The notes below the pieces were generated by a model, which saw nothing but the letters and a program-made list of their open reading frames with translations, did no database searches and was not told the origin of the DNA. Below are positions 38,522 to 42,742 of a stretch of 64,000 nt of DNA, piece after piece. The DNA comes from an uncultured Actinomycetes bacterium. Its GTDB lineage: Bacteria > Actinomycetota > Actinomycetes > S36-B12 > UBA10799. A program made the position numbers and the translations under genes. Each line of letters opens with the position of its first letter. The stretch's first letter is position 1. The stretch lies in contig CAMPEQ010000011.1 in NCBI GenBank assembly GCA_946803585.1, positions 310,001 to 374,000 on the forward strand. The letters are read 5' to 3'.

Positions 38522-38538
38522 TAGCGCGGTGACAGCGT

Positions 38539-38655
38539 TCAGCGACAAGTGCAGTGCTGATCGACTGGGAACCTGGCGAGCACCTGATCCACATGTTCGC
38601 CGCATCCGGTGTAGGTGATTTTCTGACACTGTTGACATCGAGCTGGACTACACAT
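38539..38655 (-). CDS. 38-residue cysteine-rich microprotein
   Basis: Found by reading the gap between larger genes. The product starts MCSPARCQQC and ends CTCR; it has Cys at 2, 7, 10, 18, 35 and 37 and His at 21 in a GCGEHV motif. GGAGG lies upstream of the ATG at good spacing. It is a paralogue of the 53-residue protein encoded divergently at 38834: all six Cys, Pro4, Tyr15, the GCGxHV block and Pro30 share identical positions. The pattern suggests a small metal-binding (zinc or copper) or thiol-active knuckle. The family occurs in actinobacteria but I know of no assigned function. Confidence 0.8.
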   Translation of the reverse strand: MCSPARCQQCQKITYTGCGEHVDQVLARFPVDQHCTCR

Positions 38656-38738: not shown

Positions 38739-38767
38739 TTGGCACAATATACCCCAGGGGGTATAGT
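38739..38767 (+). promoter_or_regulatory. Sigma-70-type promoter of the microprotein/DUF302 genes
   Basis: TTGGCA (38739-38744), a 17-bp spacer and TATAGT (38762-38767) form a good promoter reading toward the 53-residue gene. The spacer is occupied by the palindrome described next, so a bound repressor would block polymerase. Confidence 0.7.
38748..38765. promoter_or_regulatory. CsoR-type operator palindrome
   Basis: TATACCCC-AG-GGGGTATA has perfect 8-bp arms. TACCC-N4-GGGTA palindromes of this kind are the operators of CsoR/CstR-family repressors that sense copper or persulfide. It lies between the -35 and -10 boxes and between the two divergent microprotein genes, so it may control both. 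No csoR gene lies in the window. Confidence 0.65.
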
Positions 38768-38833
38768 CTAGACATTGTTACGACGAGCCGTCTAGTCCCA
38801 GGCGGCCACGCCAACCATGGAGGTCTACCCACA

Positions 38834-38995
38834 ATGTGTCGTCCCGCAACCTGTCGCAAATGCAATAAGACCACCTACGCCGGCTGCGGTCAGCACGTCA
38901 AAGAGGCCGTCAGCGGAGTCCCTTCACGAGATCGCTGTAAGTGCGACAACGGCAAGCCTGCCAAGCGCACACTATTCGGCTGGGGTCAGCGCTAG
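38834..38995 (+). CDS. 53-residue cysteine-rich microprotein
   Basis: Starts MCRPATCRKC and has Cys at 2, 7, 10, 18, 35, 37, with His21 in GCGQHV. A basic C-terminal extension of about 16 residues ending FGWGQR is missing from its divergent 38-residue paralogue. Basic and cytosolic, with no signal peptide. The Cys spacing suggests metal or thiol chemistry; no established function. It is followed 37 bp later by the DUF302 gene in the same direction, probably one transcript. Confidence 0.82.
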   Translation: MCRPATCRKCNKTTYAGCGQHVKEAVSGVPSRDRCKCDNGKPAKRTLFGWGQR

Positions 38996-39032
38996 ATCTA
39001 CCCGCCCGAACAACTATCAAGGAGCATCTGAG

Positions 39033-39419
39033 ATGTCTTACGCACTGACCGTCGCACTCGAGAGCCCGTTCGATACCGCGATCGAGCAGGTACGCGCTGC
39101 ACTGACCGAACAAGGGTTTGGGGTGATAACCGAAATTGACATGAAGGCCACCCTGCACAAGAAGATCGGGGCAGAGATCGACAACCAGGTCATCCTTGGT
39201 GCGTGCAATCCGGAGTTCGCCCACAAGGCAATCCAGGCCGAACCCTCAATCGGAGTCCTGCTGCCGTGCAACGTTGTCGTTCGATCGACGGGCGAGACGA
39301 CAACAGTCGAGATGATCAATCCCCAGATGATGGTCGACCTGACGGCCAATCCGGTAATGGCGGGACTGGCCCACGAAGTGTCTGACCGCCTTGAGGCAGC
39401 GATAGAGAGCCTTCGGTAA
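39033..39419 (+). CDS. DUF302 domain protein
   Basis: 128 residues: YALTVALESPFDTAIEQVRAALTEQGFGVITEIDM, then the TLHKKIGAEIDNQVILGACNP and GVLLPCNVVV strands typical of DUF302. The fold is small alpha/beta, and homologues often accompany copper, sulfur or thioredoxin genes; the biochemical role is unknown. AAGGAG lies ahead of the ATG at 39033. The frame extends upstream, but only this ATG gives the family N-terminus. Confidence 0.9.
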   Translation: MSYALTVALESPFDTAIEQVRAALTEQGFGVITEIDMKATLHKKIGAEIDNQVILGACNPEFAHKAIQAEPSIGVLLPCNVVVRSTGETTTVEMINPQMMVDLTANPVMAGLAHEVSDRLEAAIESLR

Positions 39420-39449
39420 ATAGCACGCTCCAGGAAGTACCACCTCGAC

Positions 39450-39496
39450 CCGCAGCGACTTTTACATTTCCATGTGACTTGTAAAAATGGCTGCGG
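39450..39496. promoter_or_regulatory. Long interrupted inverted repeat upstream of alkB
   Basis: Two 17-nt arms, 39450-39466 and 39480-39496, pair with three mismatches in the middle: outer CCGCAGC/GCTGCGG and inner TTTTACA/TGTAAAA, with a 13-nt loop. It ends 51 bp before alkB. It could be an operator for a dimeric regulator or the terminator of the DUF302 transcript. Confidence 0.65.
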
Positions 39497-39547
39497 TTTG
39501 GGAGACTCGTGGGAAGCACTTGTTACCACAATCCTGGAGGTCAGAGC

Positions 39548-40726
39548 GTGGGTGTTCTTAGGTCACCATCCCTGGAGACCAGCCTGGGCCCCTGGCGAGA
39601 TCCCAAACGCTACCTGTGGCTGCTAGGCGTCGTCATGCCGATGCTCCCGTTCATGGCTGCCGGACTCGTTGCACTAACCGGCCTGGGAGTCTTCTGGTGG
39701 TGGGGACCAATCTTCGCTTTCATCCTCCTGCCAATCCTCGACATCACCGTCGGTCGCGATACCAGCAATCCGCCAGAGGAAGCAGTGGCCGCGTTAGATC
39801 GCGATAAGTACTACCGCTGGTGCACCTACCTCTTCATTCCGCTGCAGTACCTCGCGCTGGTGTACTCGTGTTACCTCTGGGCTGGCAGCTCGCTCAGCGT
39901 GCCGGACAAGATCGGGCTCGCCGCAACGATGGGCGTCGTCGCCGGGGTCGCTATTAATGCCGCACACGAGCTCGGCCATAAACGCGACCGATTAGAACGA
40001 CGACTGTCCAAAATTGCTCTGGCACAAACCGCCTACGGTCACTTCTACGTTGAACACAACCGGGGCCACCACGTTCGAGTCGCTACCCCTGAGGACCCGG
40101 CGAGTAGCCGACTCGGCGAGAGTTTCTGGGCTTACTGGCCCCGGACGGTCTTTGGCTCTATTGGGTCGGCCTGGGGGATGGAGTCACGGCGGTTCGCCAA
40201 GCGCGGGACAACTAAGTGGTCATGGCGCAATGACGTCTTGACCGCGTGGTCATTGACGATTGTTCTTTGGCTTGCGCTGATCATCGCCTTTGGGATGGGG
40301 ATTGCGCCGTATCTGATCGTTCAAGCCTTGGTCGGGATCACCTTGCTCGAGGCGGTGAACTACCTGGAGCACTACGGGCTCTTGCGCCAATCGCGTGGCG
40401 ATCGCTATGTGCGAGTGACTCCCGAGCACAGCTGGAACTCAAACAACACCGTCAGCAACTTGCTGCTCTATCACCTTCAGCGACATAGCGACCATCACGC
40501 GAATCCCGCTAGGCGCTACCAGTCACTTCGACACATGGACCAAGCTCCACAGCTTCCCAGCGGTTACGCGGCAATGATTATTCTGGCAACGGTGCCATTC
40601 GCTTGGCGCAAGGTGATGGATCCTCGGTTGGCAGCTCACTATGGCGAGGACCTATCGCTAGCCAACATCTCACCCCGCAAACGCGACAGAATCATGACAA
40701 ACCAACCAGGCTCTCCGGTGCACTAA
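39548..40726 (+). CDS. alkB: Alkane 1-monooxygenase (AlkB), integral membrane di-iron
   Basis: 392 residues with about six helices. The histidine boxes are all present: HELGH (His140/144), EHNRGHH (His170/174/175), RHSDHH (His313/316/317) and the AlkB signature NYLEHYGL. AlkB hydroxylates the terminal carbon of alkanes using O2 and electrons from rubredoxin. No rubredoxin, rubredoxin reductase or fused rubredoxin domain is present, so the electron donor must be elsewhere. GTG 39548 follows GGAGG by 7 nt; an upstream in-frame GTG at 39509 is discarded. Confidence 0.94.
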   Translation: MGVLRSPSLETSLGPWRDPKRYLWLLGVVMPMLPFMAAGLVALTGLGVFWWWGPIFAFILLPILDITVGRDTSNPPEEAVAALDRDKYYRWCTYLFIPLQYLALVYSCYLWAGSSLSVPDKIGLAATMGVVAGVAINAAHELGHKRDRLERRLSKIALAQTAYGHFYVEHNRGHHVRVATPEDPASSRLGESFWAYWPRTVFGSIGSAWGMESRRFAKRGTTKWSWRNDVLTAWSLTIVLWLALIIAFGMGIAPYLIVQALVGITLLEAVNYLEHYGLLRQSRGDRYVRVTPEHSWNSNNTVSNLLLYHLQRHSDHHANPARRYQSLRHMDQAPQLPSGYAAMIILATVPFAWRKVMDPRLAAHYGEDLSLANISPRKRDRIMTNQPGSPVH

Positions 40727-40729
40727 TCT
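40724..40729 (+). promoter_or_regulatory. Leaderless -10 element of the HNH gene
   Basis: TAATCT ends 6 nt before the ATG at 40736 and overlaps the alkB stop codon. Confidence 0.5.
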
Positions 40730-40735
40730 GCATCC

Positions 40736-41098
40736 ATGGCGGCGGGACGAACGAGACGACAACGGGCGGCCCGTCGTCGCAGTCGGCGAGTCGCCGCCGG
40801 GGATCATGACCTGAGCCCAACCCAATGGGCAACCTTGCAAGAGGCCTGGGGTGGCTGCGCGTACTGCGGGATGGAGGGCTCTGCACTTCAGAAGGACTGT
40901 GTACTACCTATCTCCCGGGGCGGGCGCTACACCCTCGACAACGTTGTTCCAGCGTGCCGATCGTGCAATGCGAGTAAGTGCAATCACGAGGTGACTTCTT
41001 GGATGCGTCGCAAGAAACTTGATGAGCGCGCATTCATCGAACGGCACCTCAGGGTGCAGCAAACCATGGCTCGAATGATCGAACTCGACGCCATGTGA
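40736..41098 (+). CDS. HNH endonuclease-like protein
   Basis: 120 residues with a very basic N-terminus (RTRRQRAARRRSRR), a CxxC zinc pair (CAYC), and an HNH-like region KDCVLPISRGGRYTLDNVVPACRSCN with a second CxxC. The usual first His of HNH (in D-H-V) is Cys here (D-C-V), so nuclease activity is uncertain; I believe related actinobacterial proteins may share this change. It starts 9 bp after alkB but probably has its own leaderless promoter. Confidence 0.82.
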   Translation: MAAGRTRRQRAARRRSRRVAAGDHDLSPTQWATLQEAWGGCAYCGMEGSALQKDCVLPISRGGRYTLDNVVPACRSCNASKCNHEVTSWMRRKKLDERAFIERHLRVQQTMARMIELDAM

Positions 41099-41108
41099 CA
41101 ATCGATTG

Positions 41109-42149
41109 ATGGCAACAAAACGTTCCTATGTAATCGCGGCAATCGCCGTGCTGGTAGCACTGGTCTTAGTTCTCCTCGTAGCTAGTCTGCTGCGCACGAG
41201 CAGCGACACATCGACCGAGGGCGCGCAGCCAGTTGTACTGGAATCGGTCGGAGCCAGCGGCCCTGCGCCGTTCACGAACTCCGTCTCTTCGAGCCCCGCG
41301 ACCGACTCCGCTGGAGACGATGTCGTGGTGTCAAGAACGACGGTCGGCGATATCGAACAGGCCGACGGAGCTACTCCAGGCCTTTATGGCGGCACGGGTG
41401 CTTCGGACGCGTGTGACGTGGGCCAACTGATCGAGTTCTTGGCGAACAACCCTGACAAGTCCACCGCTTTCGCTAGTGCCGCCCAAATCCCCGCAAGCGA
41501 CCTACCGACCTACCTTTCCCAACTACTGCCAGTGGTACTAGTGACCGACACTTGGGTAACAAATCACGGATACGAATCCGGTCAGGCCACACCGTTCCAA
41601 GCTGTGCTGGAGGCCGGGACGGCCGTCCTCATCGACAACACTGGCGCCCCACGCGTTCGCTGCGCCTGCGGCAACCCCCTGCTGGCTCCCGACGGGTTGG
41701 CTGGCTCCGAGGTCGACCTCACGGGTACCCCTTGGGATGGCTTCACGATTGGCTCATCGCAGTTCATTGAGCCAGCGCCCACGGCCCTCACATCGATTCA
41801 ACTGCGTCCCCCCAATGGTGGCGAGCTCGTATCTGTGCCCTTCGCGACCGAAACATCTGACCAGGACATCGCCAGTTGCGGAGAACTACAGGGCCGCGAC
41901 GGCAGTCAGCTAGCAGTGATTCCTGTTCGAGGTTTCGGGCAGCCCGCCCCCTGCGAGGCCCTGTTCAGTTTGGCGCAGCAGTACTTCACCGTCCCAGCAA
42001 CTGAGCTCTCGGGTAGTGCCGGGTACTGGACCACCGGGGAATGGGAATGCGCCATCGAGGCAGCCGGCAACCGCAGCCCCCGCGACGCCGTGGGTGGTTG
42101 CACCTCACGTGACGGGGATCGTCGGATTGAGTTCTATCCCATCCCTTAG
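41109..42149 (+). CDS. DUF6777-like exported or membrane-anchored protein
   Basis: 346 residues: an N-terminal helix (about 8-28), a Ser/Thr-rich linker, then a domain with GLYGGTGASDACDVGQLIEFL, VTNHGYESGQATPFQAVLEAGTAVLID and the cysteine-containing RCACGNPL, which I recall as DUF6777. Six or more cysteines in the outer part suggest disulfides. Function unknown. ATG 41109 is preferred over an in-frame TTG three bases earlier. No clear ribosome binding site; GACAAT lies 6 nt upstream. Confidence 0.75.
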   Translation: MATKRSYVIAAIAVLVALVLVLLVASLLRTSSDTSTEGAQPVVLESVGASGPAPFTNSVSSSPATDSAGDDVVVSRTTVGDIEQADGATPGLYGGTGASDACDVGQLIEFLANNPDKSTAFASAAQIPASDLPTYLSQLLPVVLVTDTWVTNHGYESGQATPFQAVLEAGTAVLIDNTGAPRVRCACGNPLLAPDGLAGSEVDLTGTPWDGFTIGSSQFIEPAPTALTSIQLRPPNGGELVSVPFATETSDQDIASCGELQGRDGSQLAVIPVRGFGQPAPCEALFSLAQQYFTVPATELSGSAGYWTTGEWECAIEAAGNRSPRDAVGGCTSRDGDRRIEFYPIP

Positions 42150-42247
42150 CACCCGGCTACCCTCCTCGGAGCCGAACACTTCGCGGGTTGCAATTCCATG
42201 GCATCGGCGGCAGGGTAGTCAGTGGGAATGTCGACCGGGCCTCAACT

Positions 42248-42275
42248 GTTCATATACCCGTAGGGGTATGTGAAC
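42248..42275. promoter_or_regulatory. Second CsoR-type operator palindrome, upstream of thioredoxin
   Basis: GTTCATATACCC-GTAG-GGGTATGTGAAC has 12-nt arms with one mismatch and the core TACCC-N4-GGGTA, the same core and spacing as the site at 38748. It lies 84 bp before the trx ATG. I cannot place -35 and -10 boxes with confidence here. Confidence 0.65.
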
Positions 42276-42358: not shown

Positions 42359-42742
42359 ATGGCAAGCGTTACCTTGACCGCAGAGAACTTCGATAAGACC
42401 GTCGCCGACAACGACATCGTGTTGGTCGATTTCTGGGCGGAATGGTGTGGTCCGTGTAAGCAGTTTGGTCCAGTATTCGAGGGCGCGTCTGAGGGCCACG
42501 ACGGAATCGTCTTTGGAAAGGTCGACACTGAAGCGGAGCAATCGCTCGCGGCTGCCGCACAGATCACGTCGATCCCGACCTTGATGGCCTTCCGTGAAGG
42601 GGTCCTAGTCTTTAGCCAGCCAGGCGCCCTGCCCGCCAACAGCCTCGAAGAGCTCATCGGTGCTGTTAAAGATCTCGACATGGCCGATGTCCGGCGTCAG
42701 ATCGCCGAGGCGGCCGCAGCCGCCGACAAGGGCGACAGCTGA
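42359..42742 (+). CDS. Thioredoxin
   Basis: 127 residues with FWAEWCGPCKQF (active-site CGPC), SIPTLMAF (cis-Pro) and a C-terminal Ala/Glu-rich helix. Reduces protein disulfides in the cytosol. AGGAGAAG precedes the ATG at 42359. It stands alone, without thioredoxin reductase, and under a TACCC-N4-GGGTA operator, suggesting a specialised stress-induced thioredoxin rather than the housekeeping one. Confidence 0.95.
   Translation: MASVTLTAENFDKTVADNDIVLVDFWAEWCGPCKQFGPVFEGASEGHDGIVFGKVDTEAEQSLAAAAQITSIPTLMAFREGVLVFSQPGALPANSLEELIGAVKDLDMADVRRQIAEAAAAADKGDS

Follow-up and report, generated by a model that had tools for sequence, protein, structure and literature searches.

The two palindromes found in this stretch of DNA are in all likelihood operators of a CstR-type (CsoR-like sulfurtransferase repressor) regulon for persulfide and sulfane sulfur, the regulator of which would be encoded elsewhere in the genome. 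Judged from sequence comparisons, regulons of this kind across the Actinomycetota very probably often include a tiny Cys-rich microprotein. The window, by which we mean the whole 64-kb stretch that was analysed (G000:C11:310001-374000), belongs to a 2.71 Mb genome in 11 contigs, and the genome-wide scans comprised pattern searches and protein searches.

Operators in the window and in the genome

The features of the window that bear on this reading were:

38536..38655 including stop, - strand: second microprotein copy, MCSPARCQQCQKITYTGCGEHVDQVLARFPVDQHCTCR, 38 aa; divergent, with operator 1 about 100 bp upstream
38739..38767, + strand: promoter at operator 1; -35 TTGGCA at 38739-38744, 17 bp spacer at 38745-38761, -10 TATAGT at 38762-38767
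38749..38764, strand not applicable: operator 1, ATACCCCAGGGGGTAT, of the TAC-X8-GTA type; direct reading
38834..38995 including stop, + strand: Cys-rich microprotein, MCRPATCRKCNKTTYAGCGQHV..., 53 aa; from family alignment and phylum-wide occurrence
39033..39419, + strand: DUF302 protein (PF03625), 128 aa; directly after the microprotein gene
39548-40726, + strand: fatty-acid desaturase/AlkB-like gene; directly 3' of DUF302
42254-42269, strand not applicable: operator 2, ATACCCGTAGGGGTAT, within the longer palindrome GTTCATATACCC-GTAG-GGGTATGTGAAC (42248..42275); direct reading
42359..42742, + strand: thioredoxin, 127 aa, with a WCGPC active site (PF00085, TIGR01068); preceded by operator 2

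Direct reading confirmed both palindromes of the first-pass annotation, as well as the TTGGCA-17-TATAGT promoter described there. Operator 1 overlaps the spacer and the -10 element of this promoter, its right arm contributing the TAT of the -10, and a right-arm TAT followed by NNT was recurrent across 50 aligned microprotein promoters. The 38-aa microprotein copy is shorter than the usual gene-calling length. None of the desaturase/AlkB-like, HNH and DUF6777 genes between the two operators had an operator of its own; their membership of the regulon is putative, and transcriptional read-through from DUF302 into the desaturase gene is possible.

The pattern TACCC-N4-GGGTA had two exact matches within the window, and five when up to one mismatch was allowed, compared with 0.89 expected. 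Genome-wide it was present exactly at five places, one of which was within a coding ORF. The 16-mer ATACCC-N4-GGGTAT occurred exactly four times in the genome, whereas its reversed control pattern occurred 0 times, and all four perfect sites were in promoters. In addition to the two window sites these were C10:46527, between a CsoR/CstR-family gene and a divergent gene for a CoA-disulfide reductase with a rhodanese domain, and C11:466728, which precedes a rhodanese lipoprotein gene. Sites with one mismatch to the 16-mer were also considered as extra regulon members and were rejected, all seven being within stop-to-stop ORFs of at least 150 aa. In the same genome, 11 near-match sites taken as controls had no panel gene downstream.

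The first-pass annotation had assigned the palindromes to operators of the CsoR/CstR type. The genome scan bore this out, in that the motif was rare and promoter-bound, and accompanied a CsoR/CstR-family gene as well as rhodanese genes. The description of the regulon as local did not hold, as its four sites are on two contigs and the same genes share one operon in a relative (G011). That the palindromes are the product of chance, or elements of another kind, is a reading to which we attach next to no probability. The motif is short and one of its five 14-bp matches is coding, but the near-zero reversed controls, the conservation over the order and the phylum, the promoter placement and the gene content all argue against it.

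Two regulators and two operator spacings

Protein searches identified two PF02583 (CsoR/RcnR) genes in the genome, at C10:46199-46465 and C11:874829, so that a CsoR/CstR-family protein is present, as the first-pass reading of the operators had presumed. The former is the candidate regulator:

C10:46199-46465, - strand: CstR-type repressor gene; PF02583, 82 bits against a cut-off of 22.8

The earlier statement that the regulon lacks its regulator was therefore correct only locally, since this repressor gene carries the operator in its own promoter, with the CoA-disulfide reductase/rhodanese gene divergent across the site. In an alignment of 30 CstR-type and 21 CsoR-type proteins, the C10 repressor had kept two Cys residues and the CsoR His was absent, as was the case in all 30 CstR-type relatives. 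Its closest solved chains were 7mq1 and 7mq3, which carry the label CsoR in the PDB and which we take to be pneumococcal CstR. The gene at C11:874829 encodes a copper-type CsoR, closest to that of S. lividans (121.8 bits), and precedes a copper-ATPase-like gene.

The two gene types differed in the spacing of their operators. TAC-X9-GTA was found upstream of 21 of 21 CsoR-type loci (the C11 locus and 20 from relatives). CstR-type loci had X8 sites and X9 in none, although 13 of the 30 had no X8 site in the upstream 350 bp, in some cases because the gene is operon-internal. This split agrees with published operators: those of the S. lividans copper CsoR are TAC-X9-GTA (PMC3902906), and S. coelicolor ScCsoR, a sulfane-sulfur sensor with a persulfide dioxygenase gene and a rhodanese gene as targets, binds ATACC-n6-GGTAT (PMC7533328). 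Both window operators have the X8 spacing of the CstR type and neither has the X9 spacing of the copper type, and the persulfide reading is therefore preferred over the copper one. The first-pass annotation had proposed a thiol/persulfide or copper response; its persulfide half is thus favoured, and its copper half is disfavoured by the X9 spacing at the CsoR-copA promoter and at the 20 CsoR loci from relatives.

The same X9 spacing weighs against an alternative in which the window sites would be copper operators of the C11:874829 CsoR and the microprotein would be metallothionein-like, for which RicR and MymT of mycobacteria are the model. The two paralogues recognise similar palindromes, and metal ligands are plausible in a small, Cys-rich protein. 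However, the X8 sites go together with the CstR-type gene and are located at rhodanese, persulfide-dioxygenase-like and thioredoxin genes, and X8 was the only common spacing at the best 80 microprotein loci, where X9 never occurred. We consider the copper alternative very unlikely. We give equally little credence to overlapping control, in which both repressors would bind X8 and X9 sites and copper and persulfide stress would induce a shared set of genes. Identical half-sites (TACCC/GGGTA) and the PF02583 fold shared by the paralogues would allow it, but the spacings split cleanly between the two gene types. In addition, neither of the two CsoR-family paralogues of T. thermophilus binds the sites of the other (PMC10318464), and sulfide stress elicits no response from the CsoR of S. 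aureus (PMC5480029).

Conservation in relatives and the microprotein family

The CstR-type reading was examined further in a sample of 60 genomes (the window genome and 59 relatives). ATACCC-N4-GGGTAT had 166 matches in these genomes compared with one for the reversed control. A perfect site was present in 41 of 46 genomes with a CstR-like gene and in 4 of 14 without one (Fisher p = 2.7e-5, a value that is optimistic because the genomes share kinship). Five relatives had a CstR-like gene and no perfect site. Conversely, no PF02583 gene was detected in G018, G047, G028 and G029, draft genomes of 83-97% completeness with one to five perfect sites each, perhaps because of gaps in the drafts.

A panel gene started within 450 bp of 102 of 117 distinct perfect sites, a fraction that is optimistic because the panel was partly drawn from these same sites. 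Genes within this distance, in categories that may overlap, were those for the microprotein (35), CoA-disulfide reductase/rhodanese (19), CstR (17), thioredoxin (15, the window site counted), rhodanese (11), a persulfide-dioxygenase-like protein (10), an SQR-like protein (5) and DUF302 (3). Only recurrent clusters were considered among the genes downstream of sites, as single picks included high-GC shadow ORFs. In G011 the genes for rhodanese, thioredoxin, DUF302 and CstR stand one after another behind a single site, which indicates that parts dispersed in the window genome form a single transcription unit elsewhere. The order in G052 is site, microprotein, site, thioredoxin, rhodanese. The pairing of microprotein and DUF302 under an operator of the same kind was also found in G008, and DUF302 adjoins the operator and the CstR gene in G035 and G011. 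Searches of the window genome yielded no gene close to the SQR of the relatives and no clear persulfide dioxygenase-rhodanese fusion, so that its pathway differs from the classical oxidation route.

Two other proteins recurred beside operator sites in relatives. A small protein, AhpD/carboxymuconolactone-decarboxylase-like as judged by its sequence and a possible further member of the regulon, adjoins seven sites (L054, L072, L083, L085, L092, L161 and L168). A secreted protein judged by its sequence to be DUF2202-like (ferritin-like) follows six sites (L044, L105, L135, L136, L137 and L164).

The microprotein had no match in Pfam up to E = 1 and none in the PDB. In NCBIfam there was none for the 53-aa copy, and other members had only weak matches below the cut-offs. 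The 38-aa copy (38539-38655, - strand) showed a very weak likeness (E 0.25) to TIGR04129, a Bacillus CxxH/CxxC protein, which may reflect remote kinship or be fortuitous. A literature search that covered few subscription papers found no mention of the string GCGQHV, and in the incomplete PLSDB gene tables the places of the microprotein were mostly without a listed feature.

A profile search identified the family in 50 of the 60 genomes, and it was present at no fewer than 564 places (at least) in sequenced species, the best 80 of which were all in Actinomycetota. At 50 of these best 80 loci TACC-N6-GGTA (X8) was located within 200 bp upstream, compared with 0.2 expected from letter shuffles. 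When spacings from n=2 to n=12 were scanned at the same 80 loci, n=2 and n=5 (X7) were each found once besides n=6, and no others were present. A CstR-like gene was within 3 kb of 49 of the 80 loci, compared with 0 for five control genes. Among the relatives, the operator was found at 29 of 38 microprotein genes.

In 79 aligned microproteins the residues C2, C7, C10, T14, G17, C18, G19, H21 and C35 were invariant, and the last ligand position was C37 in 41 and H38 (C-x-G-H) in 38. The invariant Cys and His residues, together with a Cys-to-His swap that is typical of metal ligands, suggest that the microprotein binds metal. The predicted structure, of low confidence (pLDDT 70), was a hairpin and a short helix; a comparison with PDB folds returned nothing significant, and its weak top matches included several zinc-binding proteins. 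Most likely, the microprotein would be a small accessory protein that binds metal (probably zinc) and/or accepts sulfane sulfur. Our more specific proposal is a tentative one, and we hold it to be possible rather than probable: that this undescribed Actinomycetota family of 37-65 aa (M-C-x4-C-x2-C-x7-C-x2-H-x13-C-x-C or C-x-G-H) belongs to the core of the CstR regulon and serves as a metal-dependent persulfide sensor, carrier or buffer. If this proposal is correct, there would be a dedicated step of sulfane-sulfur handling for which no protein has been known.

A candidate circuit and its closest known systems

We propose that the two-Cys repressor encoded on C10 would most likely bind ATACCC-N4-GGGTAT in four promoters, in each case between the -35 and -10 elements. 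It would thereby repress its own gene and the divergent CoA-disulfide reductase/rhodanese gene, the rhodanese lipoprotein gene, the divergent microprotein genes with DUF302, and the thioredoxin gene. A rise in sulfane sulfur may lead to persulfide chemistry at the two Cys residues and release of the repressor, and derepression would then supply proteins able to carry, reduce or buffer persulfide. The response would consist of a CoA-persulfide-reductase-like enzyme, a rhodanese and a thioredoxin, which DUF302 and the microproteins would join in roles that are as yet undefined.

Among the closest known systems is the ScCsoR circuit of S. coelicolor (PMC7533328), which likewise has a two-Cys CsoR-family repressor, the 16-bp palindrome ATACC-n6-GGTAT and a site between the repressor and rhodanese genes, with ScCsoR repressing itself. 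The ScCsoR sites are at a persulfide dioxygenase gene (with a sulfite exporter) and the repressor/rhodanese genes, whereas those of the window genome are also at thioredoxin, DUF302 and microprotein genes, and no clear dioxygenase fusion was found. The C10 protein also resembles the CstR of S. aureus and E. faecalis, which are two-Cys CsoR-like repressors. In E. faecalis the target of CstR is a CoA-persulfide reductase that has a rhodanese domain (PMC9405070), similar to the CoA-disulfide reductase beside the C10 repressor. The CstR of S. aureus is believed to have a single operon under its control (PMC5480029), in contrast to the four promoters on two contigs here.

The S. lividans copper CsoR (4ADZ; PMC3902906) belongs to the same superfamily and has the same half-sites, and the C11 CsoR is its close relative; its C-H-C metal site and TAC-X9-GTA operator are found in neither the C10 repressor nor the window operators. 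B. licheniformis YrkD is another CstR-like sulfane-sulfur sensor, and its cluster, in the part of the report available to us, includes rhodaneses and a hypothetical thioredoxin (PMC9918477). The genes described in that part are clustered, and neither a microprotein nor DUF302 is mentioned there, in contrast to the dispersed sites of the window genome.

These findings would add thioredoxin and DUF302 to the CstR regulon, and would tie a widespread small gene that has no family model to persulfide stress. In this order, X8 versus X9 would provide a sequence rule by which the persulfide operators of the CsoR superfamily can be distinguished from its copper operators. Both the microprotein and DUF302 would thereby gain a physiological context that can be tested.
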